A stretch of DNA of 64,000 nucleotides from Pedobacter schmidteae. Lineage in GTDB: Bacteria; Bacteroidota; Bacteroidia; Sphingobacteriales; Sphingobacteriaceae. The DNA lies in the NCBI RefSeq assembly GCF_900564155.1, contig NZ_LS999839.1, positions 6,073,097-6,137,096 of the forward strand, read 5' to 3'. The position numbers and the translations under genes are program-made. This document shows positions 10,344 through 28,766 of this stretch, piece by piece (the stretch's first letter is position 1; every line of letters starts with the position of its first letter). The notes beneath the pieces are model-generated. The model saw only the letters and a list, made by a program, of their open reading frames with translations. It was not told where the DNA came from and made no database searches.

Positions 10344-10344
10344 G

Positions 10345-10890: not shown

Positions 10891-10930
10891 ACCTGATACT
10901 GGATTTGAGGCAAAGATACAAGCTTAGCCC

Positions 10931-10961
10931 ATAAAAAAAGCTGCCTTTTTCAGAAGGCAGC
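10931..10961 (-). terminator. Terminator of the OmpA-like gene
   Basis: An 8-bp perfect stem, GCTGCCTT (10940-10947) and AAGGCAGC (10954-10961), with a 6-base loop, followed on the minus strand by seven T residues. It lies 20 bases after the OmpA-like stop codon and reads in that gene's direction. Confidence 0.8.
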
Positions 10962-10983
10962 CTCTATCAATATTTTAATCAAT

Positions 10984-11511: not shown

Positions 11512-11657
11512 TTGTTTTTTTTATTTGTGTTCGTAATGATAAAAAATAAGTATCAGATCTTAAAAAGAATACCATTTTAAAACGAAGGTTTTACACAAAT
11601 AGTCTTAATGACGTTCAAGAGTTCTCCATTTCATCTCTTCAATGCCACGCGCAAACT

Positions 11658-12809
11658 TTATTTACCCTGTTTTTCATTGTCCAACAATTCTGAAATTTTA
11701 CGTTCTAAAGCATCCCCTCTTAGGTTTTTCGCCACAATCTTTCCATCCGGACTGATCAGAAAATTTGTAGGTATTGTTTTCACATGATATTTTAATGCTA
11801 CGTCATTATTGCCCCCCTTCAGATCTGAGACCTGAGTCCAGTCTAAACCATCTTCCTTTATCGCTTTAATCCAGGCCGCTTTTTGTCCAGGATTATCCAA
11901 AGACACCCCCAACACAGTAAGCTTTTTGCTTTTATACTTATTGTATACCTTCACTACATTTGGATTTTCGGCCCGACAAGGACCACACCAGGAAGCCCAG
12001 AAGTCCAACAACACATACTTACCTTTAAAATCAGATAACTTAACCGGCTTGCCATTTACATCCGTTTGGGTAAATTCAATAGCGGGCTGCCCAGGTGTCA
12101 GCAATTTAACCGCATTTATATCTGCCTCAATCTTCTTACCAAATTCTGTTGCTTTTAAACGTGACGAGAATTTATTGAACTCCTGAAGTGCATGATCCGG
12201 ATCAGCTTCTGGTTTTACCGTACTTTTAAACAAAATCAGACTGTAAAGCGCGTCGGGATTGTTACGTATAAAGTTTGGATGAATTTGCTCGGTCTCTTTT
12301 TGAAGTACTTTTAGCTGTGCATTAAAGCCCTCAGTATAGGCCGAATCCTTTAATTGTTGGGCAGTTCCCGATTTGTACCGGGCCATAATCTCATTGGCTC
12401 TAACCTGAATCTGCGCATTTATAGCCTTACATCTGGCCACATCATCATTCACAGCAGAGCCACTTACCAACGCCTGACTTACCAGCTCACTATTGGAGAC
12501 TACTTCTGTCATACCCGGTTCCAGGTAAAATTCCAGAATGTCTGAAGGCTTTCGTTTCGAATTCGTTTCAGTAGCAATATTACTTTTGATTTTAATATAG
12601 CCTTGCGCTACATCGGTCACTGTACCATTGAAAGTAAAAGTACCCTGGCTTAAAACTGCGGAGTCTATTTTATTTATTCCATTTTCGCGGTAATAGAGAA
12701 ATGCCTTTGCAGGGACTGCACTAGAAGCAAGGCGGCCTTTAATGCTAAACTTTTGCTGGGCCATCGATACAAATGGGAACAAGCTTAAGAGGAGAAAAAC
12801 TCTTTTCAT
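11658..12809 (-). CDS. TlpA-family thiol-disulfide oxidoreductase with N-terminal DUF4369
   Basis: A 383-residue exported protein: signal peptide (to about residue 17, SMAQQ), a DUF4369-like beta domain (FSIKGRL..., about 20-120), a helical linker, and a C-terminal TlpA-like thioredoxin domain with active site WCGPC at 274-278 and cis-proline loop TIPTN. Proteins of this type catalyse disulfide reduction or exchange in the periplasm; the substrate is unknown. It is transcribed alone, away from the LEA14-like gene. A promoter with the same two boxes as the sigma/FecR operon lies 24 bases before its ATG, which places it in the inferred ECF regulon. Confidence 0.9.
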   Translation of the reverse strand: MKRVFLLLSLFPFVSMAQQKFSIKGRLASSAVPAKAFLYYRENGINKIDSAVLSQGTFTFNGTVTDVAQGYIKIKSNIATETNSKRKPSDILEFYLEPGMTEVVSNSELVSQALVSGSAVNDDVARCKAINAQIQVRANEIMARYKSGTAQQLKDSAYTEGFNAQLKVLQKETEQIHPNFIRNNPDALYSLILFKSTVKPEADPDHALQEFNKFSSRLKATEFGKKIEADINAVKLLTPGQPAIEFTQTDVNGKPVKLSDFKGKYVLLDFWASWCGPCRAENPNVVKVYNKYKSKKLTVLGVSLDNPGQKAAWIKAIKEDGLDWTQVSDLKGGNNDVALKYHVKTIPTNFLISPDGKIVAKNLRGDALERKISELLDNEKQGK

Positions 12810-12833
12810 ATAGATTTGGGGTTTAGTTATAGA

Positions 12834-12866
12834 CTATAAGGCATGTCGAGGTAAAAAAAGGGTGAA
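12834..12866 (-). promoter_or_regulatory. Candidate ECF sigma promoter of the TlpA gene (leftward)
   Basis: On the minus strand the 12-mer TTCACCCTTTTT (12866-12855) is followed by GCCTTATAG (12842-12834), with exactly 17 bases between CACCC and GCC. The TlpA start codon is 24 bases beyond. The same 12-mer, spacing and GCCT box occur at three other sites in this window. It forms one half of a divergent pair. Confidence 0.72.
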
Positions 12867-12895
12867 CAGAAATAAAAATATCTTTCACCCTTTTT
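12855..12895. repeat. Inverted repeat joining two divergent ECF promoters
   Basis: Perfect 12-bp arms, AAAAAGGGTGAA (12855-12866) and TTCACCCTTTTT (12884-12895), flank a 17-base AT-rich centre. Each arm is the -35 element of an outward-facing promoter, so the repeat arises from back-to-back promoters rather than from a terminator: no gene ends here. Confidence 0.75.
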
Positions 12896-12916
12896 ACAAA
12901 GCACGATGCCTATGCT
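12884..12916 (+). promoter_or_regulatory. Candidate ECF sigma promoter of the LEA14-like gene (rightward)
   Basis: TTCACCCTTTTT (12884-12895) is followed by GCCTATGCT (12908-12916), with exactly 17 bases between CACCC and GCC. The ATG of the LEA14-like gene is 15 bases further on. This is the plus-strand partner of the leftward TlpA promoter. Confidence 0.68.
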
Positions 12917-12931
12917 TACTAAAACCTATAC

Positions 12932-13393
12932 ATGACATTAAACAAAAAAAAACTGGCACTGGCATTTTTCCCGGCGCTACTGGCATGCAGTCCATTCAAA
13001 AATCCCGAATTCAGAATGTCCCGGATCCTTGATGTTGAAGTACTTAAATGGGAAGGCAGCAGTCCAACTATCAGAACCAAAGCCATCTGCTACAATCAGA
13101 ACCGTTTTGGTTTTACCTTTAAAGGAGGCGAGGCGACCATTTATCTGGATACCTTAAAACTTGGAACCGCAAAAATTGATACAACTTTTTTTGTACCTGC
13201 TCATTCGGAGTTCAGGGTTCCCGCATATCTAAAAATTGATATGGCCTACTTGTCCAATCACGGTTTAAGACTCGACAGCACTATAGTTACCCTTAAGGGA
13301 AAGTTCAAAGGAAGTGCTGCCGGAATCTCAAAAACACTAGATATCAGTTACAAAGGTGAGCATGATATCAATCTGATCATGAAGCCGTTTTAA
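12932..13393 (+). CDS. LEA14-like (WHy domain) lipoprotein
   Basis: A 153-residue lipoprotein with a lipobox LLAC (C19) and one beta-sandwich domain. The alternating pattern (RILDVEVLKWEGSSPTIRTKAICYNQNRFGFTFKGGEATIYLDTLKLG, then FVPAHSEFRVPAYLKIDM) matches the WHy/LEA type 2 domain: a conserved N in an early strand, a short strand giving the inner 'level', and a late strand set against the membrane-distal face. The role of bacterial members is unclear; stress protection is suggested. It is the only rightward gene of the inferred ECF regulon and converges with the double-TlpA gene, with only five bases between the two stop codons. Confidence 0.72.
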   Translation: MTLNKKKLALAFFPALLACSPFKNPEFRMSRILDVEVLKWEGSSPTIRTKAICYNQNRFGFTFKGGEATIYLDTLKLGTAKIDTTFFVPAHSEFRVPAYLKIDMAYLSNHGLRLDSTIVTLKGKFKGSAAGISKTLDISYKGEHDINLIMKPF

Positions 13394-13398
13394 AATCA

Positions 13399-15306
13399 TT
13401 ATTTATCCAGCAGTTTCTTTATCAATACATCCATTTCGTCACTTAATCCTGATGACACCCTCATCAGGATTTTCCCATGATGATCCAGCAACAATTTGGT
13501 TGGATACCCGGTAATGCCATAAGCTTTAACAATATCAGGAGCTCCCGATCCCTCATCGTTTAGCACATGAACCCAATTGGCATCGTCTTTTTTTATTGCA
13601 GCAAGCCAGGCTCGCTTTGCTCTTTCAAGATCAGCTCCCTTTTCATTTGCAACGGCTACAATTTCCAAACCTTTGGATTTATACTGCGCATACAATTCCC
13701 TTAAATGAGGATGTGTTTGCCTGCAGGGCACGCACCAACTTCCCCAGAAATCGAGCAGCACCAGTTTACCGCGATAATCGCTCAGTCTTATCGTTTTGCC
13801 GTATTGATCTTTACGTGTAAAGTCTGGCGCTTCCATTCCTGTTGGGGTCACCTTCATCCGACTTATTTTTTCCCTTATGGCTGCACCCAAAGCTGTATTT
13901 TTTAATCGTTCAGATAAAGTATCGTAAGCGGCCGCATAGCTATCAGCAGCGTATACACCATCAAGCTGGTTCAATTGAAATAAACTCAAAAACGAATCCG
14001 GATGCCCTGCAATAAAAACCTGTTTCATTTTAAGTTTCTGTTTATGAAGTGATACTCCCCTGGTGGATAACAATTCACGCAAAGCAATACTATCTTTAAT
14101 GATGTCCAGTTTTCCAATATCATTTGCCAATGCGCGTTCGCCAATATCTGTTTCCAGCATACTGTTTAACTTCTCAAAATCTTCTTTGAAACCGACTGCA
14201 TTCAGGTTTTCTTTTTCCAGGGCCTTCAATATATAACTATAGTTGAGGTCCGACAAAGGCACAATATCACCTGGATCGTCGTTCTTCACATTCGACGGCA
14301 ATATTTTATCTCTCATTAACGCAGCTTTGTGCTCGGAGTTTAGTATCACCCCATCAGGGCCAATCAAAAAACTGGCGGGGATCAGATTTACATCGTATAA
14401 TACTGCGGCCTGATTTTGGGCCTTTCCTAAATCTGCAACCTGCAACCATGGTACATTATCTTCTTCAATTGCCTTTAACCATGCCCCCTTTTCTTTATCC
14501 AAAGAAACTGCAAGAATCACAAATTTTCCAGTGGCATTTAAAGCATCATAAAGTCCTTTCAGCTTAGGTTGCAGGGCACGACATGGTTTACACCAGCTCG
14601 CCCAGAAATCAAGAAACACATATTTCCCCCTGAAATCGGAAAGCCGTACTAACCGCCCGTTCTGATCTGCCATTGCGAAATCCGGTGCAGGTTTGCCCGC
14701 ACGGATAGACAGCGAGGTTTTTATAGCAAGCCCCAGTTCTTTTCCCGCTTTTGTTTGTTTGAGGGCTTCCGATAATTCCTGGTAACTCTCGATAACCAGG
14801 TTATCTCTTCCTCCGATTTCAATCATCCAGTCCAGACTTACCCTGGAGGCAGGATGCCTGCGTACAAATCCGGACATGAGCATAGATTCTTCAACTGTGC
14901 CCTGTCCTTTTATACTTTTCATCAACCTTTGCTTTTCCTGGTTATCCAGATTTAACGCTGTGCCCCATACGCTGGCCTTAGCCAGCGTATCTTTTCCTTT
15001 TATCTGTATAATACCGGTTTCCAGATATACCGACTGTGAATCTACATATCCTGTTTCATCAAATTTTCCCTCATGGCCAAGTACCAGCGTACCCTGCAGC
15101 GGTTCTTTTACCAGCCCTGAAAATGTAAATACTCCGCCTTTTACCCGGCAGGAATCTTTCACCATCGTCTTGCCAACCTGGTAAAACAGATAGGCTTTAG
15201 CCTTTGGGGGGACATGATCTAGCCTGGCCTTAATCAGATATTTATGTTGCTGACAAAACCCGGTGAAGGGTAATGCCAGCAAAAACCATAAAACTATTTT
15301 TTTCAT
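13399..15306 (-). CDS. Double-thioredoxin TlpA-like protein (DUF4369 plus two TlpA domains)
   Basis: A 635-residue exported protein, about 250 residues longer than the other TlpA proteins here. After a signal peptide (to about residue 18) comes a DUF4369-like domain (HKYLIKARLDHVPPKAKAYL). A first TlpA domain follows with FWASWCKPCRALQP (about 235-250) and a proline loop LIPASF. A helical spacer leads to a second TlpA domain with FWGSWCVPCRQTHP (about 525-540) and a GYPTKL loop. Both CxxC pairs are intact, so both modules may be redox active. It is the last gene of the TlpA-SusC-SusD operon, six bases after the preceding lipoprotein. Its two-module design suggests electron relay or handling of two thiols; that is inference. 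Confidence 0.9.
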   Translation of the reverse strand: MKKIVLWFLLALPFTGFCQQHKYLIKARLDHVPPKAKAYLFYQVGKTMVKDSCRVKGGVFTFSGLVKEPLQGTLVLGHEGKFDETGYVDSQSVYLETGIIQIKGKDTLAKASVWGTALNLDNQEKQRLMKSIKGQGTVEESMLMSGFVRRHPASRVSLDWMIEIGGRDNLVIESYQELSEALKQTKAGKELGLAIKTSLSIRAGKPAPDFAMADQNGRLVRLSDFRGKYVFLDFWASWCKPCRALQPKLKGLYDALNATGKFVILAVSLDKEKGAWLKAIEEDNVPWLQVADLGKAQNQAAVLYDVNLIPASFLIGPDGVILNSEHKAALMRDKILPSNVKNDDPGDIVPLSDLNYSYILKALEKENLNAVGFKEDFEKLNSMLETDIGERALANDIGKLDIIKDSIALRELLSTRGVSLHKQKLKMKQVFIAGHPDSFLSLFQLNQLDGVYAADSYAAAYDTLSERLKNTALGAAIREKISRMKVTPTGMEAPDFTRKDQYGKTIRLSDYRGKLVLLDFWGSWCVPCRQTHPHLRELYAQYKSKGLEIVAVANEKGADLERAKRAWLAAIKKDDANWVHVLNDEGSGAPDIVKAYGITGYPTKLLLDHHGKILMRVSSGLSDEMDVLIKKLLDK

Positions 15307-15312
15307 GCTGAT

Positions 15313-16149
15313 CTATTTAACGATGGCCTGCAGATCTACACCATAGTTCTGCTTATAGTAATTCACAATGATGTTGTATTTCTGCCTGTACTTCCCTTTG
15401 GGGTCATTCTGTGGCAAAAACAGGCTCTGCTCCAGTTCTTGTTGAGTTTTAGATGTGATCACTTCAATAAAACCTAAAAAATCGTTGTAAGGAGTAGCAG
15501 CGTCATCGAAATCCGACATGAAAACACCGTACTGCGCTTTTGTCTGGCTTAACACATTAACATAATTTGTTGCCGTTAAAAAAGTCGGAGGGAACGGAAT
15601 TTTATCAAAACCAACAGCTTGGGCCCAGAATGCCTTGTGCAAATCACTTTTCATGATCTTTAATTCATCCGCTGTCATAGTTTCCAGACTGCTTCCAGCC
15701 CTGCCGAAAGCAAAATGACTCGAGGTATTTACACTGTTAACTGGATTGTCCAATGTATCCAGAAAAAGATCAACCTCTCTGATCCGCGAGGAAAGGATAA
15801 TTTTATAAGGCAAAGCAACCTTCAGAAAGCCTGTTGGATAAAAGCGAAACAGGTTTTTATCCAGTGCTTCCAGTGATTGCCCGATATAATTTTCGTCGCC
15901 CTGATCGGCTACATAAGGTATAGCGCTGGCGATATTCCATTCAAAATCCTGCTTGGTGAATTTATAAAGAATGTAACAACCATAGGTATTGTAAAAATCC
16001 AGGATCTTTTGGTCATAGGGATGGTTGCCCTGCGGCAATGTGAATGCCGGCTTCAGTTCATCGGGCTTTATATCGGCCTCTTTACTACAGCCTATAAAAA
16101 TTGATAGCAGTAAAATAAAAAGTGGGTACAATAATATTCTTGGTTTCAT
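15313..16149 (-). CDS. Zinc-metallohydrolase-like lipoprotein (TIGR04549/PF15890 type) with degenerate zinc motif
   Basis: A 278-residue lipoprotein (lipobox ending at C21, IFIGCSKE). The opening part (DQKILDFYNTYGCYILYKFTKQDFEWN) resembles the substrate-import-associated zinc metallohydrolase lipoproteins that sit beside SusC/SusD genes. Where that family has HExxH, this protein reads HKAFWA (171-176): the first His is kept but the catalytic Glu and second His are missing. The downstream acidic motif is NDFLGFIEV (222-230). It lies between susD and the double-TlpA gene with gaps of 10 and 6 bases. I infer a non-catalytic accessory, perhaps a ligand-binding part of the import complex. The family assignment is from memory of the pattern, not from a search. 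Confidence 0.7.
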   Translation of the reverse strand: MKPRILLYPLFILLLSIFIGCSKEADIKPDELKPAFTLPQGNHPYDQKILDFYNTYGCYILYKFTKQDFEWNIASAIPYVADQGDENYIGQSLEALDKNLFRFYPTGFLKVALPYKIILSSRIREVDLFLDTLDNPVNSVNTSSHFAFGRAGSSLETMTADELKIMKSDLHKAFWAQAVGFDKIPFPPTFLTATNYVNVLSQTKAQYGVFMSDFDDAATPYNDFLGFIEVITSKTQQELEQSLFLPQNDPKGKYRQKYNIIVNYYKQNYGVDLQAIVK

Positions 16150-16159
16150 ATTAGTCGGA

Positions 16160-17581
16160 TTAATGCCCTTTACGTAGGGCCGGATCAGGGTTAGGGATTA
16201 AATTCGGGTTGCGCTCCATTGCAGTCTTTGGAATTTGAAGCACATATGCCGGATCCCGTTCCTGAAGTGTATAAACGGCTGTCTGTACGTTATTCTCATA
16301 GTATACATGGTTGATCGAAGGCATTCCCATGCGGCGAAGGTCGAACCACCGGTGACAATCTTCATCAAACAGCTCCCTACGCTTTTCCTCGAAACATTTC
16401 TGTAACAGATCGTCTGCATCGGTAACTACCAGGTCCTGATAAGCATCTGGCCTGAACCTCTTTTTCCTTAAGGTATTCAGGTCGTTCAATGCAAGCTGTC
16501 CATTTCCGGTCTGATCTAGCTTATTTAGCTGTGCATAAGCTTCTGCCCTGTTCAACAGGGCCTCTGCTACCCTGAATGACTGGCCTACTTTAGCAAAAAC
16601 AATTGAAGGGCGTTTAATTGATCTTCTGTCCTTGATGTAGATACTTGTTCTCAGATCCCCGTTTTCAAAAGCAGACATCAGGTTCTCGGACAATCTGTAA
16701 TTTAGGTTTTCAGAATTTGATGGAAATACTGCAGCAGAGGGTGGTCCATATATCCAGATACTTTCTATATTTTGTCGTTCGATAACAGGCTTATTGTTCT
16801 GGTCAGGGGCACCCCAGTTGGGCAGGTCCATCAGATCCGATTTATAGTTCAATACGGTAGTACTGGCTTCAATTGCCTTCTGCCAGTTGCCCATTTGCAG
16901 ATAAATACGCGATGCCAGCAGATATCCGGCAATATGGTTAATACGGAACACATTGTTGTTTTTTCCACTACGTTCCATTAACAATATGCCTTTGTCCAGG
17001 TCCTGTAAAATCTGCTGATATACCTCGGCTACGGTATTTCTCTTTTTGCCTTCAAAAGACAGGTCTGCTGAAAGCATCAGTGGTACCCCCAGATCAGTTG
17101 AAGGATTTGACAGCCGGTCACTATAGGGTTTCCCATAAAGGTTAACCAACTGGTAATAATAGAATGCACGCAACAGATAAGCTTGCCCTTCCACATTTTC
17201 TTTTTCTGCAGTTGTTCCTGTTACTTTGGGTGCATATTCCAGTACCGAATTACAACCCAGGATCATGGGATATAAACTCAGCCAGATCATAGACCCGGCG
17301 ACTTTATCAGGTTTACCGGCAGTTTGCGGTTGCCAGGTATATGCAGGAAACATATCGTTCGTCAGAAAGAATTTTTCCTCGGCAATATTGTCGTCTAAAA
17401 GACGTAAGGTTGCATCAACCCCACCATTGCTGGTATAGGCGGCACCGATCAGCAACTCATTTAATGAAGAAGCTGATTTTGGAATGATATCCGTTTGCGA
17501 CTGTTCTTCAAGAAACTTTTTACAGGAGGAAACCGGTAAAAGTGCTGAAAGGAGGAGCAGCAGGAGTATATTTCTTTTCAT
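16160..17581 (-). CDS. SusD/RagB family outer-membrane lipoprotein of the ECF-controlled locus
   Basis: A SusD-type lipoprotein of 473 residues from the ATG at 17581, whose signal peptide ends at C20 (LPVSSCKKFLEEQ). An upstream in-frame ATG at 17605 would overlap the SusC stop and add eight residues, but gives a poorer signal sequence. Typical SusD segments are present: YLLRAFYYYQLVNLYGKPY, EALLNRAEAYAQL, LNTLRKKRFRPDAY and CFEEKRRELFDEDCHRWFDLRRMGMPS. It should cap the preceding SusC channel. The bound nutrient is unknown; the absence of any glycoside hydrolase and the presence of TlpA proteins argue against a simple polysaccharide locus. Confidence 0.93.
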   Translation of the reverse strand: MKRNILLLLLLSALLPVSSCKKFLEEQSQTDIIPKSASSLNELLIGAAYTSNGGVDATLRLLDDNIAEEKFFLTNDMFPAYTWQPQTAGKPDKVAGSMIWLSLYPMILGCNSVLEYAPKVTGTTAEKENVEGQAYLLRAFYYYQLVNLYGKPYSDRLSNPSTDLGVPLMLSADLSFEGKKRNTVAEVYQQILQDLDKGILLMERSGKNNNVFRINHIAGYLLASRIYLQMGNWQKAIEASTTVLNYKSDLMDLPNWGAPDQNNKPVIERQNIESIWIYGPPSAAVFPSNSENLNYRLSENLMSAFENGDLRTSIYIKDRRSIKRPSIVFAKVGQSFRVAEALLNRAEAYAQLNKLDQTGNGQLALNDLNTLRKKRFRPDAYQDLVVTDADDLLQKCFEEKRRELFDEDCHRWFDLRRMGMPSINHVYYENNVQTAVYTLQERDPAYVLQIPKTAMERNPNLIPNPDPALRKGH

Positions 17582-17591
17582 TTTTTTAAAT

Positions 17592-20500
17592 TTAAAAGGT
17601 AACATTTAAGCCCAGGGTGAAGATTTTTGCAATAGGTAATGCGGTAGTTCCTACCCCATCAATTTCAGGGTCCTGGCCTCTTAATTTTTTATCTGCTATA
17701 GTAAACAGGTTGGAAATACCTCCTGAAACTGATGCCTGTTTCAACCTGATACGTTTTAACAACACGTCACTGAACCTGTAAGATAAATCGAGGGTATTGC
17801 ACCTGAGAAAACTTCCTGAAACCACATTGATATCTGAATAGTTATACATCTCATAACGGCTCATATTGCCAGTATTTGTCAAATACACATATCCACCCAA
17901 AGCCCTATCGTCAACTCTCGGGAATGACGGAATATCTGTATGAAGTTCATCACCTGGTTTGCGCCAGCGTTCTGTTAGAATTACTGGCAAATTTTCTATC
18001 GGTCCGGGAATATTTAAACTTGAAGGATCATAAACCGGGTTTCTGAATTTTACTGAGCCTAGCCGGAACGCAAAAGAGGCCCCAACTGAAAAAGCTTTAT
18101 AGCTGATATTGGTATTCAGTCCCCCACTAATTTTTGCATTTTTAGTCCCCACGGGTTTCAGGTATTCAACAAATGAAGTTTTGTCTCTTACCTCCCCTTC
18201 ATCATCTACCCCATGGAACATTGGAAAACCATTTTCGGGGTTTAATCCTTTAAAAGAAAAAGCATAAATGGTACTTATAGGCTGGTCTTCAACAAATACA
18301 TTTCCATTAACATAATCCAGCACCCTTGTTTGGGTAGCTTCCAATGTACCATTTTGCAGGATATTGAAATTCTTTGCTCCATTAATAGCCATGCTCCAGT
18401 TCAGATCTTTGGTCGTAATCAGGTTAAGTCCCAGTTGCAGCTCATAACCGTGGTTCCTGATGTTACCCCCGTTCACCAACATCTTTGTTATGCCATATTC
18501 AACCGGGATAAACCTGGAAACAATCGCATCAGAAGTCTGTTTGCGATAATAACCCAGGTTAAAATTCAGGAATGAATTGAAAAGTGAGCCTCCCAGCTCC
18601 AGGTTCACGCTCTTGGTTTTTTCCCATTTAAGGTCTGGATAGGGCATAGATTTGATCTTGAGATAAAATTCTTTGGCTACATCATTCATTGCTGCTGTTC
18701 CATCATTTGCCATCAGGATCAAGTCAGGTCCCACCTCCCTAATTACGTTGCCCTGAAAGCCATAGGATGCCTTCAGGTACAGGTCGTTCACAATCTTATT
18801 GCCTTGCAGCCATTGCTCAGAACCTGCATTCCAACGTCCGGCAACACTCCAGATCGGAAGAAAGCGCTGGTTGGCATACTGGCCGAAACGATTGGAGGCA
18901 TCAGTCCTGATGTTCCCGTTCAGGATATATTTACCTGCATAACTATAAGTCGCGGTACTGAAAAGGGACAAGGCATTATTTATTGTGTTGGTCCTTTTAG
19001 GACTAATCAATTCTAAAGTATTCTTTGAAAGGAAAAAGCCTTCACCACGGTCCTTGAAATAGCCCGGTATTAAGTTGTCAAGCCCTTCATTATGCACCGA
19101 TCTGATTTCCATCCCCGCAATTACATTCAACTGGTCTTCGGTCGAAAAAATGTTCCGGTTAAATTCAGCCATATTCCTGACATTATAGGTGTAAACAGCG
19201 GACGTTGACGGAGACAATACTCCTCCAAAAGGTAATGCTGAAATCATTTCTTCCGGGCTCCCGGGAGCTACAGTTCCATAATCATAACCACGCAAATTTG
19301 CTGCGTAATTGCTAAACTCTGTAGCATATTGTGTAGCGTTTAAGGTATTAATTGATCCGGCTGCAAGCGTACTCAGCTTTAAGCCCCGCATCAGCAGGTA
19401 ACTCAGATCTAAAGCTGCATTTAGTTTGGTATCTTTTACCTGACTGCCGGTCTGCTGCATTTCCTGCAAAAAATTATAATTGAGCGCCGGCCCAGGGAAA
19501 CCAGGCAAAATATCTATTGTGATCGGATAGGTTAGCGATGAGGAAATCGCCCTGCTGGTTTTAAGCGCATAATCAAGCGGGTTTATTCCAAAATATCCAT
19601 TGGAAACCCTGTAACTCCCGTTTAATTTGAACCCAAACTTCAGTTTTCTGCTCAGTTCGGTACTGAGGTCTAATGCTGCACTCCCTTCCTTCAGATCGTC
19701 GAGTCTGGCCGTACCCTTATTGTCGTTATAAGATAGAGATGAATAATAATTAGTTTTTTCATTTCCTCCTGAAAAGCTGATGTGCTGTCCTACATTTAAA
19801 GTATTTCTGAACAATACATCGAACCAGTCTGTATTCATACTTTCCAGTCCCGCAACCTCTTTACGGAATTCAGTTTCGGATATCTTTCTGTTGAGCAGGT
19901 CCAGCAGGCTCCCTTCGTATCCCATTTTTACCGGCACGGACTTGTAAAGATAACCATCTTCGTACATCTCTCGCGAAAACCTTACCCGCTCCTGTGAATT
20001 CATCAATTGCAGCTGACCATAGTTTGGTTTACGTGAAGTCCCGAAAGTACTGTTATAGTTAATTGCCATTGCTCCGCTTTTTCCTTTTTTGGTAGTGATT
20101 ACAATCACACCATTTGCAGCCCTGGTACCATATATGGCTGTAGCTGAAGCGTCTTTTAAAAAGGTAATACTTTCCACGTCATTTACATTAAGACCGGTAA
20201 TGGCATTTCCGGTCAGGCTACCTTTGGCGAGGATACCGGTTTTCAATATCACCTGGTCGCGTGCACTGGGTTCAACTCCCATCAGGTTATCCGGATTGAT
20301 GTCATTTGGGTTTTCCCGGATTACCCCATCTACAACAATAATCGGGTTTGCATTACCAACCAATGTAGACGTCCCGCGCATGCGCATGGACGGGATGGCA
20401 TTCGGGCTGCCTGAATTTTTTACAACAGATAATCCTGCCACTTTTCCCTGCAGCATACTCACTATATTGGTTGATCCCGGATCCTTAATGTCTTTGCCCT

Positions 20501-21155
20501 GCAGGGTAACCGTAGAACTCGCCGACAAACGTTTGTTTACCTGCTGATATCCCGTAACCACTACTTCCTCCATCTCTTTTAATTCGGCAACAAGTTTAAC
20601 CACAAGTAGTTCCCCAGGAACTGGCTTGATGATTTTCTTTTGAAACCCTACAGAAGAAAAAGTAAGGCTCTTGCCTTCCTGCAGTTCAATGCTGAATTTT
20701 CCGTCCTCATTGCTAATCGTGTTACTTGGGCTACCTGTTACATTTACAGTAACCAAAAATAAGGGATTCCCTTTCTCATCGGTAATCATCCCCTTAATGA
20801 GGTTGTTTATTTTAGGTTCCTCGTCCGATTCCTCCTTAGGGCCAATTACCATTACATTGTCCACTATTACAAACGTTAGCAGAGAACCTTTTAACAAACG
20901 TTTCATCAGTACTTTAAGCGGCTCCGCTTTTGAAGAAAAACTTTGTCTCGGACTTTTTTGTACCAGTTCCTGGTTATACACAATCTTAACTGCAGTTTGC
21001 TTCATTACTGCCTTTATAATCTCCTCAAGTGTACCATTGCGGATATTGATTGTTACCTTATCCTCCTTTTTCTGCTGTGCTAAAGCCGGCTGCAGAAAAG
21101 CCATGAACAACAAGCCATAAACTGCAAGGCAGATTGTCCTATAAAAATAATTCAT
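17592..21155 (-). CDS. SusC/RagA TonB-dependent transporter with N-terminal STN signalling domain
   Basis: An 1187-residue outer-membrane importer. After the signal peptide comes an STN (secretin/TonB short N-terminal) domain at about 33-105 (VTINIRNGTLEEIIKAVMKQ, then FVIVDNVMVIG). A carboxypeptidase-regulatory-like domain follows (IKGMITDEKGNPLFLVTVNV, about 118-195), then the TonB box region MEEVVVTGYQQ, a plug (to about 355, GTRAANGVIVITT) and a barrel ending LGLNVTF. In FecA-type systems the STN domain contacts the FecR anti-sigma factor when ligand is bound. The FecI/FecR pair encoded just upstream fits this directly. It follows the TlpA gene by 29 bases and precedes susD. Confidence 0.95.
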   Translation of the reverse strand: MNYFYRTICLAVYGLLFMAFLQPALAQQKKEDKVTINIRNGTLEEIIKAVMKQTAVKIVYNQELVQKSPRQSFSSKAEPLKVLMKRLLKGSLLTFVIVDNVMVIGPKEESDEEPKINNLIKGMITDEKGNPLFLVTVNVTGSPSNTISNEDGKFSIELQEGKSLTFSSVGFQKKIIKPVPGELLVVKLVAELKEMEEVVVTGYQQVNKRLSASSTVTLQGKDIKDPGSTNIVSMLQGKVAGLSVVKNSGSPNAIPSMRMRGTSTLVGNANPIIVVDGVIRENPNDINPDNLMGVEPSARDQVILKTGILAKGSLTGNAITGLNVNDVESITFLKDASATAIYGTRAANGVIVITTKKGKSGAMAINYNSTFGTSRKPNYGQLQLMNSQERVRFSREMYEDGYLYKSVPVKMGYEGSLLDLLNRKISETEFRKEVAGLESMNTDWFDVLFRNTLNVGQHISFSGGNEKTNYYSSLSYNDNKGTARLDDLKEGSAALDLSTELSRKLKFGFKLNGSYRVSNGYFGINPLDYALKTSRAISSSLTYPITIDILPGFPGPALNYNFLQEMQQTGSQVKDTKLNAALDLSYLLMRGLKLSTLAAGSINTLNATQYATEFSNYAANLRGYDYGTVAPGSPEEMISALPFGGVLSPSTSAVYTYNVRNMAEFNRNIFSTEDQLNVIAGMEIRSVHNEGLDNLIPGYFKDRGEGFFLSKNTLELISPKRTNTINNALSLFSTATYSYAGKYILNGNIRTDASNRFGQYANQRFLPIWSVAGRWNAGSEQWLQGNKIVNDLYLKASYGFQGNVIREVGPDLILMANDGTAAMNDVAKEFYLKIKSMPYPDLKWEKTKSVNLELGGSLFNSFLNFNLGYYRKQTSDAIVSRFIPVEYGITKMLVNGGNIRNHGYELQLGLNLITTKDLNWSMAINGAKNFNILQNGTLEATQTRVLDYVNGNVFVEDQPISTIYAFSFKGLNPENGFPMFHGVDDEGEVRDKTSFVEYLKPVGTKNAKISGGLNTNISYKAFSVGASFAFRLGSVKFRNPVYDPSSLNIPGPIENLPVILTERWRKPGDELHTDIPSFPRVDDRALGGYVYLTNTGNMSRYEMYNYSDINVVSGSFLRCNTLDLSYRFSDVLLKRIRLKQASVSGGISNLFTIADKKLRGQDPEIDGVGTTALPIAKIFTLGLNVTF

Positions 21156-21184
21156 ATGTTTGGTTTAGTTATGGAGAGCGCTGG

Positions 21185-22315
21185 TTATTTGATCAGTTTA
21201 CTTAAAAATTTATCCAGCGCTTTACTGCCCGGATTATAATCCCTTATACCTGCTGCGATAATTTTTCCACTTGGATCGACCAGAAAATTAGCAGGGATAC
21301 CCAATACTTTATAAGCTTTGGCTGCACTATTCTGATCTCCTTTTAAATCCGATAATTGTGGCCACGACATCTGTTCATGGTTCATTGCCTCCATCCATTT
21401 CTCTTTGTCTTTATCCAGTGAAATACTCAATATGGTAAAGTTTTTATCTTTATATTTTTCATATACTGATTTTAATTCCGGAATCTCTACGCGACAAGGG
21501 GTGCACCAGCTTGCCCAGAAATCAACCAATACATATTTACCTTTGAAATTGTCCAGGCTCAATACCTTGCCATTTGCATCAGGCTGAAAAAAATTTGGTG
21601 CCTGTTTATTCACCCATTGCTCTGAAGAACCAGAGAAACTGGCTAGCATCGCCGTAGTCAGCTGGTTCTTTGCATTCCCGGTAAATTTATTCAGATAGTC
21701 CAGTTTTTCCTGCTCAGTCAACATTTCGGACAATACCGCATTAACCAAATATGCAGAAGAACCCCAACTGAGGTGGCTGTCCAACCAGTTTTTGCCAGCA
21801 GCAATAACCTTTTGTCTCAATATGGAACTTTGCGCGCCAATTGATTTTACCGCAGCTTCATCCCCCAGTTTACTGGCTTCAGCAAATTCAAGCGACAACT
21901 CGTCAAGTTTGCTGATATTATCATAAGTTTCTTTCATTCCTTTCTCCAAAGCTACCCATTGAGATACAAAAGCATCCCCCGTCATAGTGGCATCTTTAAA
22001 TCCGGTTCCATTCCCTTGTATATGCATTTTTCCAGCTTCCAGATAAATGATCATCCCTAATCCCGTCTTTTCACTGTCTTTTCCAGATGCCAAAATAAAT
22101 GTCGATCCCCCTCCTTTCATCGGCTTAGAAAAAGAAAAACTTTTGTCTTTTACATAAGTAGAATCCGTTCCTTTATCTATCGGGTTCCAAAGATAGACAA
22201 CTTCACCATTAACCAGGTCAGGCATTTTTGCTGTCAGTTCCAGTTTATCCTGCGCAAAAGCTCCCATCGAAAGCACAGTCAGGCCTAAAAAAGGCACTAT
22301 AGATTTTTTCATCAT
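21185..22315 (-). CDS. TlpA-family thiol-disulfide oxidoreductase with DUF4369, first gene of the SusC operon
   Basis: A 376-residue exported protein with signal peptide (cleaved near AFAQD), DUF4369-like domain (LELTAKMPDLVNGEVVYLW, to about 125), a helical middle with conserved AYLVNAVLSEMLT-type helices, and a TlpA thioredoxin domain with active site WCTPC (270-274) and proline loop GIPANF. It heads the operon TlpA-SusC-SusD-metallohydrolase-like-doubleTlpA, which runs on one strand from 22315 to 13399 with gaps of at most 29 bases. A candidate ECF promoter lies 39 bases before its ATG. Its place at the head of an import operon suggests that the imported ligand or the importer itself needs thiol chemistry in the periplasm. 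Confidence 0.9.
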   Translation of the reverse strand: MMKKSIVPFLGLTVLSMGAFAQDKLELTAKMPDLVNGEVVYLWNPIDKGTDSTYVKDKSFSFSKPMKGGGSTFILASGKDSEKTGLGMIIYLEAGKMHIQGNGTGFKDATMTGDAFVSQWVALEKGMKETYDNISKLDELSLEFAEASKLGDEAAVKSIGAQSSILRQKVIAAGKNWLDSHLSWGSSAYLVNAVLSEMLTEQEKLDYLNKFTGNAKNQLTTAMLASFSGSSEQWVNKQAPNFFQPDANGKVLSLDNFKGKYVLVDFWASWCTPCRVEIPELKSVYEKYKDKNFTILSISLDKDKEKWMEAMNHEQMSWPQLSDLKGDQNSAAKAYKVLGIPANFLVDPSGKIIAAGIRDYNPGSKALDKFLSKLIK

Positions 22316-22353
22316 TTTGATTAGTTTATATTTAATAGTTCAGGTGATTTAAA

Positions 22354-22386
22354 AGTATAGGCGAGGTACATTGCAAAAAGGGTGAA
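22354..22386 (-). promoter_or_regulatory. Candidate ECF sigma promoter of the TlpA-SusC-SusD operon
   Basis: On the minus strand TTCACCCTTTTT (22386-22375) is followed by GCCTATACT (22362-22354) with exactly 17 bases between CACCC and GCC. The first start codon of the operon is about 39 bases further. Its -35 element coincides with the 3' arm and T-run of the hairpin that follows the FecR gene. Confidence 0.72.
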
Positions 22387-22415
22387 AACAATTTTAAATT
22401 ATTTTCACCCTTTTT
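22375..22415 (-). terminator. Hairpin after FecR that also carries the next operon's -35 element
   Basis: Perfect 14-bp arms (22375-22388 and 22402-22415) enclose a 13-base AT-rich loop. On the minus strand the stem GGGTGAAAA/TTTTCACCC ends in TTTTT, the layout of a Rho-independent terminator, 15 bases after the FecR stop. The same TTTTCACCCTTTTT is the -35 region of the promoter for the TlpA-SusC operon. No rightward -10 box is present on the other arm. Confidence 0.6.
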
Positions 22416-22430
22416 CATCCGGCAGTAAAA

Positions 22431-23558
22431 CTAACGTTGCCTAACCTGTATACTTTTCCCTTTTACTATAAAATCAACCTGGTTACTACTCAGCCTGATG
22501 TTGTTCAGGATCTTAGTAAAATCGGTAGTTCTGGGCATATCAATGGTGAAATGAAGGTTTTTGAGTGCCTCATTTTCAAAACTAAAGTCCAGGTCATATT
22601 CCCGTTCAAGTCGGGAAGTAATCTCTTGCAGGGTATTATTATTAAAATATACATCCAGGTCTTTCCAGGCTGTGTACATCCTCATATCTGCTTCAGTTTT
22701 CTGTAAAGATTTCTGCTTCGGGTTATAAACTCCCAATTCTCCAGGTAAAAGAAACAAAGATTGATTGCCTGCCAGCAAGCTTACTTTTCCTCGCTCCAAA
22801 GCTGTTTGTACAACAGTACCAAACGTATTTATACTAAAAGCAGTCCCAAGTACTTTCACCTCCACATCCCCAAGCTGAACCACAAAAGGTCTTTCGGCAT
22901 TATGCTTTACATCGAAATAAGCTTCACCTTCCAGACTAACCTCTCTTTTGCTGGCAGCAAAAGACGTAGGATAAATCAGTTTCGATCCTGCGTTTAGCCA
23001 TATCATAGTTCCATCACTCAGTTCCAGGCGCGTATATTTCCCTTTTGGTACAGTCAGTGTATTCATGTTAAGTTCCTCCCCCTCTGCAATCGCTTTTGTC
23101 TCGGGCTTGTAGGTCAGGTTACTTCCGTTCAATGCAGCCCCTTCCGACTTTAAAATATCAGAATGACTTGCATCCAGTTCAACCGTTTTACCATTACTCA
23201 ATGTCAGTCTGATCTGGCTATCTGAAACCGGACTTGAGGTATCGCTTTGACGCAAAAACAGCCACCATGCAGGTGCAAAAATCAGCAGCAACACCGCAGC
23301 CACGGTCAGCACACGATATAACTTAACACGTTTTGAACGTTTTGTTCTTTCCTCATACCTTAGCTTCAGTTCTTCCCAACCTTCCTGTACCGGAAATTTA
23401 AGTTTAGGATCTTTTTCTTGTAAGCCCATATTTATTTCTTCTGCCAGCAGCAGCATTTCAAGCTCCTCCTGATTCAATTCCTCGTCATTTTGTATCTGGT
23501 TTGGCCCTTCAATATGCTTTAACAATTTATCCCAGTTTATTTTTTCTTCCTGATCCAT
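22431..23558 (-). CDS. FecR-family anti-sigma factor
   Basis: A 375-residue single-pass inner-membrane protein. The cytoplasmic part (1-95) carries the sigma-binding region; the membrane span is about 97-117 (VLTVAAVLLLIFAPAWWLFL). The periplasmic FecR domain runs about 165-270 (VPKGKYTRLELSDGTMIWLNAGS, VSLEGEAYFDVKH, VKVLGTAFSINTF), followed by a C-terminal DUF4974 domain (about 300-373), which meets the STN domain of the transporter. The gene starts six bases after the sigma gene and they are surely co-transcribed. The usual role is to hold the sigma factor inactive until the ligand-loaded SusC signals across the envelope; the co-encoded Prc protease may take part in its cleavage. Confidence 0.94.
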   Translation of the reverse strand: MDQEEKINWDKLLKHIEGPNQIQNDEELNQEELEMLLLAEEINMGLQEKDPKLKFPVQEGWEELKLRYEERTKRSKRVKLYRVLTVAAVLLLIFAPAWWLFLRQSDTSSPVSDSQIRLTLSNGKTVELDASHSDILKSEGAALNGSNLTYKPETKAIAEGEELNMNTLTVPKGKYTRLELSDGTMIWLNAGSKLIYPTSFAASKREVSLEGEAYFDVKHNAERPFVVQLGDVEVKVLGTAFSINTFGTVVQTALERGKVSLLAGNQSLFLLPGELGVYNPKQKSLQKTEADMRMYTAWKDLDVYFNNNTLQEITSRLEREYDLDFSFENEALKNLHFTIDMPRTTDFTKILNNIRLSSNQVDFIVKGKSIQVRQR

Positions 23559-23564
23559 AACCTG

Positions 23565-24119
23565 TTAATATAATCCTATCCATATGCCTATTACAATTAT
23601 TGTCCTGATGAGCGACTGGCATTCGCGTCGCAAAAATTCATAGGATAACTTAATATGTGTTTTTACGGTATTCACTGAGATGTCCAACTGGGCAGCAATT
23701 TCTGTATATTTTAACCCATCTTTATTACTCAGCAAAAACACGTGCCTCCGCTTCTCGGGCAGCTGACCAATAATGTCCCAAAGTACTTTATCGCGTGCCT
23801 CATATTCCAGCGCATCTTCCTGTTCCTGCTGACTAACCAGATGAGCTGCTGTTTGCAGCAATAGCTCATCATTGTAGTCAATTTTTCTAGCCTTCTTTTT
23901 GTAACTGAGTGAAGCATTTCTTACCGCCCGGAAAGCATAATTCTTAAAACTGGTCTGAACGGCTATAGTCGAAATCTTATCCAGGCAATACAGAAAAAAA
24001 TTTTGGACAATATCTTTGGCAACCTCCTCGTCTTCTACAACCCGATAGGCAACAGCGCATAAAAAGGAATAATGCGCTTTAAATAAAGCTTCTATTCTGG
24101 AAAGATCTGCCATAGGCAT
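23565..24119 (-). CDS. ECF-type RNA polymerase sigma factor, FecI-like
   Basis: A 184-residue ECF sigma factor with region 2 (LFKAHYSFLCAVAYRVVEDEEVAKDIVQNFFLYC) and region 4 (LPEKRRHVFLLSNKDGLKYTEIAAQLDISVNTVKTHIKLSYEFLR). It lacks regions 1 and 3 as expected. The C-terminal tail (LIRTIIVIGIWIGLY) is strongly hydrophobic, seen in many Bacteroidetes FecI-like factors. It lies between the Prc-type protease (20-base gap) and FecR (6-base gap), with no promoter of its own, so it should be read from the promoter before the protease. I infer that it recognises the TTCACCCTTTTT-N12-GCCT promoters found four times in this region. Confidence 0.95.
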   Translation of the reverse strand: MPMADLSRIEALFKAHYSFLCAVAYRVVEDEEVAKDIVQNFFLYCLDKISTIAVQTSFKNYAFRAVRNASLSYKKKARKIDYNDELLLQTAAHLVSQQEQEDALEYEARDKVLWDIIGQLPEKRRHVFLLSNKDGLKYTEIAAQLDISVNTVKTHIKLSYEFLRRECQSLIRTIIVIGIWIGLY

Positions 24120-24139
24120 ATGTTGTTAATTTGTCCCGG

Positions 24140-26218
24140 TTATTTCTTCACCATTGTGCCATTTATAATATCCAGGCTTTTATCAATATACAAATCAGTC
24201 GAAAGCCCCTCTATCCATTTCAGGTACCACTCGTTACCTGTCTTTTCGCCATAACCCGGAGCAGCACTCACTTTTATTTTTTTCAATGCCGTCATTTTGG
24301 CACCAATTTCAATCTTCTGCGTATATTCCTGCAATACTTCTTGTTGTTTCTTGAATTCGTAACGGTTCAGGTTCACCGGATTAAGCTGCGATTCTGCAAG
24401 CAATTTACTATTTTCGTCAATATTTTTAAAAGAATTGTCTTTCCCGGCAATTTCTCTCGCTAAGTTCAAGACTTTATTCCAAACCCCAGGCTGATTAGAT
24501 TCTGTATAACGTAATGCCGGAATACTATCCCATTGCAATGCCGTACTATTATCCATTTCCCTAACCTTAAGATAGGCTAGCTTTCCGGGAAGCACTACAT
24601 CCGAACGTACACCCCTCAATTGTGTGGACGCACCGTTGACCCTGTAAAAATGATGTTGGGTAAGTCGTAACGAACCATAGCTTACATTTGGCACTCCCTT
24701 AACCTTGTCTCCCATCTTACCCATTGGAAGCGTGGCCTGTGCACTCCCTTTTCCATAAGTTGCAGGACTCCCAATAATAATCCCTCTCTTATAATCCTGA
24801 ATCGCAGCTGCAAATATCTCTGATGCCGAAGCACTTTGCTCGTTCACCATAACCACCAACGGTCCATTATAAAGAGCTTCGTTATAAGTAGTATGTATTT
24901 TAAGTTCGTTAGGGCCTTTAATCTGGACTTTAGGCCCTGCGCCTAAGAAGTAGCCGGTCATCTTCACCACCTCATCCAATGAACCTCCCCCATTGTTTCT
25001 CAGATCAAAAATGATTCCCTTTACGTTCTCAGCTTTGAGTTTAAGGATTTCCTGCAACACATCGTCGGCCGAACGAATTCCAGCAGGATTAACCATATCT
25101 ACATAAAATTCAGGTAAAAAAAGATATCCGATCTTTTGCCCATCTTTTTCCATAATTGCACTTCTTGCCCGCCCTTCCTCATCTTTAATTTCGGCTCTTT
25201 TTAGTGATACGGTTTTTTCCTGCCCATTAGTTTTCAATAAGTTCATAGCCACTTCAGTGTCCTGATCACCACGAATCAGGTCGGCCACCTCAACAATAGC
25301 CTTTCCTGCAATATCCACCATTTTTCCATTAGGATCACTAATGCTCAGGATGCGGTCGTTTACATCTACCAATCCACTTTTTAAGGCCATTCCTCCTGGT
25401 CTTAAGGCCTTAATAAACACATCTCCATCTTTTTCCTGAAGCTCCAAACCAACGCCAAAAAAGCGTTTTGCCATATGGTTGCTGATATTTCTGGTTTGAA
25501 CCGGGGCAAAATAATTGGTATGCGGATCTACTTCCAATGTTACAATATTCAAATACTGACTAAACCTTTCGTTCAATGCTGATGGTCCTGTGAGGTTTTT
25601 AAATGTACCCATCAGCCATTTATCTACTTTCATTCTGGCTTCTTTTTCGGTTGTTTGCCCTCCCTCCTTAACGCTATCCAAATCCTGTAATCTTTGCAGC
25701 ACCAGGTATTTTGCTTTTTTCTGCCATAATCTGCTCAGTTCTGCCTGGCTCCCTGCATACCCAAGCAGGCTCCCGTTCAACTGAACTGTTTCCTTCTTAT
25801 TAAAGTCAAAAGGTTTTGCCAGTATTTTTTTATAGCCAGCGGCAGCAGACAGCAACCTTTTCTGATAAATCTGATAAGCAGCCGTAAAAAACGCTGATGA
25901 TCCCTCATGCAATTCGTCATCAATGATCAGCTCATATTTCTTCAATTCCTCAAAATCGCTTTTCAGAAATACATCTTTATTCGGATCAAGGCTTTCCAGG
26001 TATTTTTTCCAGATTATCTTTGAGAAATTATCGTCAATCGCTTTAGGACGCACATGTTTTTGCTCCAGGTTTCGGACAACATTCAGAATGGTAGCTTTTT
26101 GGGTTGCTGCAATATCAGGCTGCCCCACCTGTGCCCACAGGTTTTGTACCGGGCCTAAGCAAAGCGCTGCCGAATAAGCCAAACACTTAAGGGCGTAAGA
26201 ATAGTTAGTTTTGTTCAT
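24140..26218 (-). CDS. prc: Prc/Tsp-type tail-specific protease (S41A family)
   Basis: A 692-residue periplasmic protease starting at the ATG at 26218. A longer frame with TTG at 26257 overlaps the promoter boxes and is rejected. A signal peptide (MNKTNYSYALKCLAYSAALC...) is followed by the N-terminal helical domain of Prc (VVRNLEQKHVRPKAIDDNFS, LDPNKDVFL), a PDZ domain (VGLELQEKDGDVFIKALRPGG) and the S41 core. The core has FDLRNNGGGSLDEVV, the serine in NEQSASASEIFAAA and the lysine in TYGKGSAQ, both catalytic residues of the Ser-Lys dyad. Prc degrades proteins from the C-terminus and in Pseudomonas acts on FecR-like anti-sigma factors. It heads the sigma/FecR operon here, which suggests such a dedicated role. 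Confidence 0.92.
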   Translation of the reverse strand: MNKTNYSYALKCLAYSAALCLGPVQNLWAQVGQPDIAATQKATILNVVRNLEQKHVRPKAIDDNFSKIIWKKYLESLDPNKDVFLKSDFEELKKYELIIDDELHEGSSAFFTAAYQIYQKRLLSAAAGYKKILAKPFDFNKKETVQLNGSLLGYAGSQAELSRLWQKKAKYLVLQRLQDLDSVKEGGQTTEKEARMKVDKWLMGTFKNLTGPSALNERFSQYLNIVTLEVDPHTNYFAPVQTRNISNHMAKRFFGVGLELQEKDGDVFIKALRPGGMALKSGLVDVNDRILSISDPNGKMVDIAGKAIVEVADLIRGDQDTEVAMNLLKTNGQEKTVSLKRAEIKDEEGRARSAIMEKDGQKIGYLFLPEFYVDMVNPAGIRSADDVLQEILKLKAENVKGIIFDLRNNGGGSLDEVVKMTGYFLGAGPKVQIKGPNELKIHTTYNEALYNGPLVVMVNEQSASASEIFAAAIQDYKRGIIIGSPATYGKGSAQATLPMGKMGDKVKGVPNVSYGSLRLTQHHFYRVNGASTQLRGVRSDVVLPGKLAYLKVREMDNSTALQWDSIPALRYTESNQPGVWNKVLNLAREIAGKDNSFKNIDENSKLLAESQLNPVNLNRYEFKKQQEVLQEYTQKIEIGAKMTALKKIKVSAAPGYGEKTGNEWYLKWIEGLSTDLYIDKSLDIINGTMVKK

Positions 26219-26239
26219 AAAGTTTAACGGTTCGTTACA

Positions 26240-26272
26240 GGTAAAGGCGAACAGCAACTCAAAAAGGGTGAA
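26240..26272 (-). promoter_or_regulatory. Candidate ECF sigma promoter of the Prc-sigma-FecR operon
   Basis: On the minus strand TTCACCCTTTTT (26272-26261) is followed by GCCTTTACC (26248-26240), with exactly 17 bases between CACCC and GCC, and the ATG of prc 21 bases on. If the ECF factor reads it, the sigma operon is autoregulated. Unlike the other sites this one is not part of an inverted repeat. Confidence 0.72.
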
Positions 26273-26290
26273 CAGAACTATGAAAATATT

Positions 26291-26602
26291 TTAAGGTCTA
26301 TCGATCACACCAAAAACCGTGGTTTTCCATTTAATATAGCCCAATTTTGCGCATTGTTCCGCAACCTCAGCTTCTATGCTTCCCGGCACATCATTTACAA
26401 TTTTCCATCGGATACTATATTTGCTGTTGTAACCTATGTAAACCACAACATCATCAAATAAAGGTTCAACGGTTTCCAAACCTTTAAGGTGTATATCCTG
26501 TAGCTCTTTGGCAAAGCGTACAAGTCTTTCGTTCATCACTTTTGCCAGTGGAGGGGCTGGCTTAACATCTGGTTCTATAATCGCAAGTACAGTTACAGTC
26601 AT
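26291..26602 (-). CDS. Hypothetical protein of 103 residues
   Basis: A small soluble protein with no signal peptide or membrane span. The predicted pattern is strand, long amphipathic helix, two strands (DDVVVYIGYNSKYSIRWKIV), a helix (GSIEAEVAEQCAKLGYIKW) and a final strand (TTVFGVI). No family was recognised. The frame has a proper ATG and a possible promoter -7 box TACTTTTG on its strand at 26643-26636. It is read in the same direction as prc, but the ECF promoter lies between them, so it is probably not a member of that operon. It is divergent from the helicase gene. Confidence 0.6.
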   Translation of the reverse strand: MTVTVLAIIEPDVKPAPPLAKVMNERLVRFAKELQDIHLKGLETVEPLFDDVVVYIGYNSKYSIRWKIVNDVPGSIEAEVAEQCAKLGYIKWKTTVFGVIDRP

Positions 26603-26733
26603 CGGCTAAAATCTCAGTAATACTACTATTTTTAGCAAAAGTAAACATTATTCCTGAATTAATTGACACCATCCCGTCATTATCATTTTACCATATACAT
26701 TTCAACAATGAACAAAACAGCAAAAAAATCAAT

Positions 26734-26741
26734 TAAATTTG
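26734..26741 (+). promoter_or_regulatory. Possible -7 promoter box of the helicase gene
   Basis: TAAATTTG matches the Bacteroidetes -7 consensus TAnnTTTG and ends four bases before the ATG. No convincing TTTG box is found 19-21 bases upstream, so the call is tentative. Confidence 0.35.
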
Positions 26742-26745
26742 CTGT

Positions 26746-28659: not shown

Positions 28660-28766
28660 AACACATCGGTAGTCCAAAAACAAAGGCTCCATTCCATTTG
28701 TTGCTCCTTTTGGGCGCAGCTTCGGTCAGGGTCTAGATATAACAGCTACCTGTTACGCTGGTCCTG

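Follow-up and report, generated by a model that had tools for sequence, protein, structure and literature searches.

Locus organization

The window analyzed here is a 64-kb stretch of the Pedobacter schmidteae genome, in which the interval 11658-26272 holds a gene cluster built around a FecI-type extracytoplasmic function (ECF) sigma factor. Four copies of a motif that we propose to be the promoter read by this sigma factor stand in front of genes of the cluster, and two inverted repeats coincide with some of them. The candidate promoter sites, the repeats and the genes are as follows:

26245..26272, minus strand: candidate promoter site A, with TTCACCC and T-tract at 26261-26272, a 17-base interval (N17) and GCCT at 26245-26248; leads prc-sigma-fecR
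22359..22386, minus strand: candidate promoter site B; leads tlpA1-susC-susD-pepM-tlpA2
12839..12866, minus strand: candidate promoter site C; leads a separate tlpA gene (tlpA3)
12884..12911, plus strand: candidate promoter site D; diverges from site C and leads the gene of a LEA_2-domain protein
22375..22415, minus strand: terminator-like inverted repeat after fecR, which includes an orphan 12-mer at 22404-22415 (plus strand)
12855..12895, no strand: imperfect inverted repeat whose arms are the -35 elements of the divergent sites C and D
24140..26218, minus strand: prc, tail-specific protease (TSP_NTD, PDZ and Peptidase_S41)
23565..24119, minus strand: FecI-type ECF sigma factor (TIGR02985), proposed reader of the sites
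22431..23558, minus strand: FecR-type anti-sigma regulator (FecR, 67.8 bits; FecR_C, 52.2 bits)
21185..22315, minus strand: tlpA1, DUF4369 and thioredoxin-fold protein
17592..21155, minus strand: susC, TonB-linked outer-membrane protein (TIGR04056) with a putative N-terminal STN-like domain
16160..17605, minus strand: susD lipoprotein
15313..16149, minus strand: pepM, putative zinc metallopeptidase lipoprotein (weak Peptidase_Mx1 / TIGR04549, below cut-off)
13399..15306, minus strand: tlpA2, two thioredoxin-fold stretches
11658..12809, minus strand: tlpA3
12932..13393, plus strand: LEA_2-domain protein gene

Ten genes in total lie behind sites A to D, in keeping with the regulon of about ten genes proposed in a first-pass annotation of this DNA. 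The sigma factor passes the TIGR02985 cut-off by a small margin (128.5 against 126.4 bits) and also matches Sigma70_r2 and r4_2; its gene is separated from fecR by 6 nt. The STN domain of the window SusC scores 25.6 bits, below the Pfam cut-off of 28.4, while in relatives it is above the cut-off in six of seven SusC proteins (one of them without any single passing stretch) and below it in one. Other homologues of Prc in the same genome comprise one long protein (32% identity) and two partial ones.

A motif whose exact form is confined to the sigma factor locus

The 12-mer TTCACCCTTTTT occurs five times within the window, against 0.05 copies expected. Four of the copies have a GCCT downstream, each time with exactly 17 bases separating GCC from CACCC. 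The first-pass annotation had reported this spacing and the four -10-like boxes, and both stand as it gave them. Its count of four identical 12-mers is right for those followed by GCCT but not for the window as a whole, where a fifth copy at 22404-22415 (plus strand) was missed; this copy has no GCCT at N17 and forms one arm of an inverted repeat. The distances from GCCT to ATG at the four sites are 20, 26, 29 and 43 nt, so three fall inside the range of 15-40 bases originally given and one outside it.

A search of the complete genome, a single contig of 6,198,518 bases, finds TTCACCC-N17-GCCT four times. These matches are the four window sites, none of them more than 11 kb from the sigma gene; the reversed control pattern matches once. 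The base composition of the window predicts 1.5 matches for the genome and 0.0035 for the 14.6-kb interval, which gives a Poisson P of ~6e-12 for four sites in the interval. The genome scan that had been suggested as a check thus returned no exact match beyond this locus, and the earlier judgement that chance is very unlikely is borne out once the T-run and the fixed spacing are taken into account and the search is extended to the genome. When one mismatch is allowed in the longer form of the motif, which includes the T-run, five matches beyond the four exact ones appear in the genome against one in the control, and four of these five lie inside open frames longer than 900 bases. We have counted one-mismatch matches as non-members of the regulon, although some may be weak members.

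Co-occurrence of motif and sigma factor in Pedobacter

The sigma protein was used as a query against 145 genomes of the genus, and the motif was searched in 144. Matches to the sigma factor at E 1e-30 or better were found in 19 of 145 genomes and fall into ten at 67-100% identity, the P. schmidteae genome included, which we treat as the orthologue class, and nine at only 37-45%. Named Pedobacter records carry the sigma factor at 74-78% identity. The T-run form of the motif is present in 16 of 144 genomes, namely all ten orthologue carriers (34 matches) and six of the 134 others (Fisher P ~1e-11). Each of the six non-carriers has one stray match, in five cases within an open frame of more than 1 kb, and the nine genomes with only a 37-45% relative have no T-run motif. 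None of the 34 N17 matches of the ten carriers is more than 25.5 kb from the sigma gene, and each genome has one to six sites beside it; the comparison with related species that had been called for thus places sites next to the sigma orthologue in 10/10 genomes of the genus.

Counting one N16 site, 35 sites were found among 47 TTCACCC-N-TTT occurrences in the fetched stretches; of the 12 occurrences lacking GCCT, ten have an inverted partner and two do not. The base preceding GCCT, left free in the search, is C or T in 34/34 sites. A start codon follows 17-55 nt downstream in 34 of 35 sites, and none was found for the remaining one. Eleven sites head the sigma operon (10/10 genomes, one genome having two), ten stand just after fecR and before the next operon (10/10 genomes), six precede LEA, five are divergent partners of LEA sites and three precede other tlpA genes. 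No gene was found behind one of the divergent partner sites, in genome G065. In that genome both divergent -35 elements (L044:1840-1880) read TTCACCCCTTTT rather than TTCACCCTTTTT, with the inverted repeat preserved.

The genes behind the sites vary among genomes and are mostly of the TlpA, peptidase or protease type. The gene after fecR is tlpA1 in four genomes, another TlpA-type gene in four and a long gene in two; in the one of these two that was scanned (G086) the product is an M1-type peptidase. Further site-bearing genes encode an HtrA-like protease (scan of G001) and a fatty-acid hydroxylase (scan of G038). This variation suggests that the promoters stay with the sigma factor while the target genes turn over.

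A related arrangement in a second genus

Searches for the sigma factor across 399 genomes of the family identified three genomes of another genus with sigma factors 48-53% identical to that of the window, and an order-wide search of 400 genomes added no further genus. One of the three shares its sigma and fecR matches with a named Sphingobacterium record. In all three the motif stands directly before prc, as TTCACCC-N17-GCCT in two and TTCACCC-N17-GTCT in the third (G295), and genome-wide scans with a pattern fitted to these sites returned 1, 1 and 2 matches. Scans around the sigma gene itself found no site in this genus, the site being at the operon start upstream of prc; for instance, CACCC-N16-18-GCC and mismatch scans near the sigma gene (52% identity) in L032 gave no convincing promoter, and the neighboring stretch of the contig has the site. 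From prc to fecR there are 11 genes on the same strand, with sigma and fecR last. An apparent gap of ~300 bases in this array is an artefact of a stretch end, as an ABC-permease frame starts 43-117 bases past the preceding gene with no stop; the 11-gene array may form one transcript.

As a separate observation, one second-genus genome has Prc and TlpA domains in a single frame (L129:8038-10962, 974 aa), and the first array gene in G295 is a 971-aa frame with the same Prc and TlpA matches. The fusion points to a joint function of the protease and the thiol-disulfide protein.

The sigma factor among its paralogs

All 13 sigma factors compared share the region 4 string ISVNTVKT(H/Q)IKL-S/A-Y, which occurs in 0/30 of the own-genome paralogs viewed; one of these, L095, has ISVNTVKTQ and diverges afterwards. 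The kept string fits the same helix recognizing the same -35 element in each. The 6.2-Mb genome contains 142 matches to TIGR02985, 91 of them above the curated cut-off; some of those below it are partial or weak.

With so many FecI-type factors present, the promoters could be real and yet be read by another sigma factor of the genome, or by several. The ISVNTVKTQ shared by L095 is in line with this, and cross-talk between sigma factors is possible on sequence grounds. The site and the sigma orthologue occur together across genomes, however, and no second own-genome match to the sigma factor at E 1e-30 was found among the 23 of 140 candidates scored. We regard a different reader as highly improbable.

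The motif does not appear to be a general property of FecI loci. Across 30 loci of the 142 matches, compared in the stretches upstream of sigma or after fecR where genes could be called, no common -35/-10 pair was seen by eye (no motif program was run), and TTCACCC was absent from all 28 upstream sequences (110 nt each). We also considered TAnnTTTG, a housekeeping -7 element, before the sigma genes and set it aside as not significant (5/28, against 2.6 in shuffles; 57/500 shuffles reach the observed count). Distant homologues with 31-37% identity (L033-L038) were also set aside. Their recognition helices are different; scans of L034-L037 for CACCC-N16-18-GCC and rescans of L034, L036 and L037 with mismatches found no convincing promoter.

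A hairpin nested with the second candidate promoter

Directly after the fecR stop codon lie an A-tract, a 14-bp core stem with one U.G pair and a T-tract. The folded hairpin has a 19-pair stem (centroid), a minimum energy of -22.2 kcal/mol and a z of -5.9. Its 3' arm and T-tract are the -35 element and T-tract of site B, an overlap at the fecR/tlpA junction that the first-pass annotation missed; folding gave no hairpin at site A. On the fecR strand the U.G pair closes the stem, where the opposite strand has a C.A mismatch at the same place (7/7 computed); the seven cases amount to one observation, the sequence being the same by descent. A consensus terminator scan did not list the hairpin, we think because its rule lets the A- and T-tracts pair and then leaves no T tail. 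At gathering scores, Rfam returned nothing in window positions 10000-30000 nor in 20 own-genome FecI loci.

Two readings that dispense with the assigned promoter code were considered. The first takes the repeats as binding sites of a dimeric regulator, with GGGTGAA-N17-TTCACCC as the true operator and GCCT as incidental. Both inverted pairs in the window, at 12855-12895 and 22375-22415, do have a 17-base gap. In addition, an alignment of the fecR junction from ten genomes (77 columns) is invariant only at 35 of 38 dyad bases and GCCT, so that the whole dyad is kept rather than the -35 half alone. When all 35 sites are considered, however, a GGGTGAA partner within 45 bases upstream is found at 24 and is lacking at 11, the prc site of the window included, indicating that the promoter motif stands alone. 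The gap to the partner in the 24 ranges from 12 to 22 bases, whereas the distance to GCCT stays at 17 (16 once). The three second-genus sites have no partner in the sequence shown, and no other conserved regulator was found in the locus among the 15 window proteins used as queries. An operator function is thus very unlikely as the explanation of the repeats.

The second reading takes the repeats to be terminators or a dispersed palindromic element and nothing else. The A-tract, GGGTGAA stem, TTCACCC and T-tract do make a good hairpin after fecR, and 24 of the 35 sites have an inverted partner. This leaves unexplained the GCCT at a fixed distance, the start codon 17-55 nt downstream at 34/35 sites, the 11 partnerless sites and the linkage to one sigma gene, and we give this alternative almost no credence.

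The simplest view of the fecR junction is that the hairpin is a predicted terminator whose 3' arm and T-tract double as the -35 of the next promoter. Such simple sharing does not account for the inner stem, which is invariant in the ten genomes though the stem of a plain terminator could covary. Post-termination recycling of RNA polymerase is a known phenomenon, and a composite element can be imagined in which polymerase finishing prc-sigma-fecR would stop on the -35 of the tlpA-susC promoter, the chief target of the sigma factor, the core left on the DNA would be reloaded with the sigma factor and transcription would restart. This would account for the invariance of the entire dyad, beyond its promoter half, in the ten genomes, and it would couple self-activation and target activation in cis; we consider it an unlikely elaboration.

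Hairpins of -9 kcal/mol or better are also found after fecR in 24/27 own-genome FecI loci (L076-L104, 230 nt past the stop), counted without a shuffle control and with a few inside the next gene. An A-tract stands just before 13 of the 24 and a T-tract after none (0/24), as if they were opposite-strand terminators or leader structure. The window locus is unlike these in having a hairpin flanked by both A- and T-tracts.

A probable cognate, autoregulated promoter

The motif, its spacing, the genome-wide exclusivity of its exact form, its linkage to the sigma gene and its conservation are computed directly. Recognition of the sites by the sigma factor, autoregulation, signaling and the order of proteolysis are inferred. 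TTCACCC-TTTT(T)-N12-YGCCTW is, with a probability of roughly 0.87, the cognate promoter (-35, T-tract spacer and -10) of the FecI-type sigma factor at 23565-24119. The first-pass annotation had named this factor as the reader of the sites, and its proposal gains support from the exclusivity of the motif, from the co-occurrence across the genus and from the same -35 and spacing before prc in the second genus. The sigma factor probably also activates its own operon: the motif leads the sigma operon in 10/10 genomes of the genus and the prc-to-fecR array in 3/3 genomes of the second, and this placement of the sites argues for the autoregulated regulon that the annotation had put forward.

Several points weigh against this interpretation or restrict it. 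A loose scan of the window alone with CACCC-N15-19-GCCT was not significant (7/100 shuffles reached 4), so what makes the motif significant is the T-run, the constant spacing and the search of the complete genome. In the own genome the 11-base form has 78 matches, the 4 exact ones among them, and the 74 one-mismatch matches exceed the 49 of the reversed control; this excess may reflect weak sites or codon bias, and exclusivity accordingly applies to the exact form only. Without the T-run, the 11-base form is found in 113/144 Pedobacter genomes, which leaves only the longer T-run form as diagnostic. The Pedobacter carriers share ancestry, so 10/10 does not represent ten independent events, and the sites were gathered by a -35 pattern, which makes -35 conservation within the set circular. 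One of the 35 sites is spaced N16 instead of N17, and the -10 in G295 is GTCT rather than GCCT. Finally, the portion of PMC9249621 consulted describes E. coli fecIR and hasI as lacking autoregulation.

Under the cognate-promoter interpretation, signaling could proceed as follows. The SusC transducer would bind its substrate and pass a signal to FecR through its STN-like domain, and Prc would help to degrade FecR, by which the sigma factor would be freed or activated. Free sigma with core RNA polymerase would then transcribe prc-sigma-fecR, creating positive feedback, as well as tlpA1-susC-susD-pepM-tlpA2, tlpA3 and the LEA gene. The excerpt of PMC9249621 states that Prc is needed for processing of FecR and IutY, and that FecR-type processing in E. 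coli and Pseudomonas depends on Prc and RseP.

Comparison with known systems

A comparison with the E. coli FecI-FecR-FecA system and Pseudomonas surface signaling shows the same set of parts, namely a FecI-type sigma factor, a FecR-type regulator and a TonB-dependent transducer with a signaling domain (a putative STN-like domain here). In contrast to E. coli fecIR, the sigma operon described here carries the sigma factor's own predicted promoter and a prc gene, and the cargo consists of SusC/D, TlpA proteins and peptidases rather than an iron-citrate system. The linkage of a sigma/anti-sigma pair to SusC/D is like that of Bacteroides polysaccharide loci, as described in excerpts of PMC3878776 and PMC11501099.

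Predicting ECF-controlled promoters is called challenging and said to require start-site data in the part of PMC3878776 consulted. According to an excerpt of PMC12596196, a motif search for Bacteroides SigW-1 was not significant, yet TGTT was seen near the -10, and the promoters of SigW-1 and SigH-1 fit a non-canonical -30/-10 motif. The -35, spacer and -10 found here differ from those promoters and were set by comparative genomics. Another parallel is found in the same phylum, where the start-site-derived motif SM6 of Flavobacterium psychrophilum is of ECF type and has targets including a sigma/anti-sigma operon; in contrast to the YGCCTW -10 and TTCACCC -35 reported here, SM6 has a CGT box as its -10 and its targets include type IX secretion genes (both from the part of PMC9723704 consulted).

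No description of the motif was found in the literature searched, the predicted motifs of the ECF re-classification, which may include this group, being outside the comparison. Also absent from that literature are a sigma operon that switches itself on and includes a Prc of its own, and a fixed -35/-10 code belonging to a FecI-type sigma factor of the Bacteroidota; neither the arrangement nor the code appears in the portions consulted of PMC3878776, PMC9723704, PMC11501099, PMC12596196, PMC8999054 and PMC9249621. The parts, FecI-FecR surface signaling, are known, while the predicted self-activation, the operon's own Prc and the nested -35 are new relative to the literature searched.

The locus provides one complete and checkable code, a -35/-10 pair at fixed spacing whose exact form occurs nowhere else in the genome, tied to one sigma factor in two genera and readable from sequence alone amid many similar switches. 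It speaks for a FecI-type sigma factor being able to switch on its own operon along with a protease of a type known to act on FecR-type regulators. The recipe, a search for sites whose presence follows that of one sigma orthologue, may be applied to other FecI-type loci.

A neighboring gene

A 103-aa protein with no Pfam or NCBIfam match is encoded at 26291-26602 on the minus strand; the end of its gene lies 18 bases upstream of site A, and no hairpin intervenes in the P. schmidteae genome. In the two relatives where it was found, the protein is 90-91% identical, compared with 68-69% for prc and 75-77% for the sigma factor.

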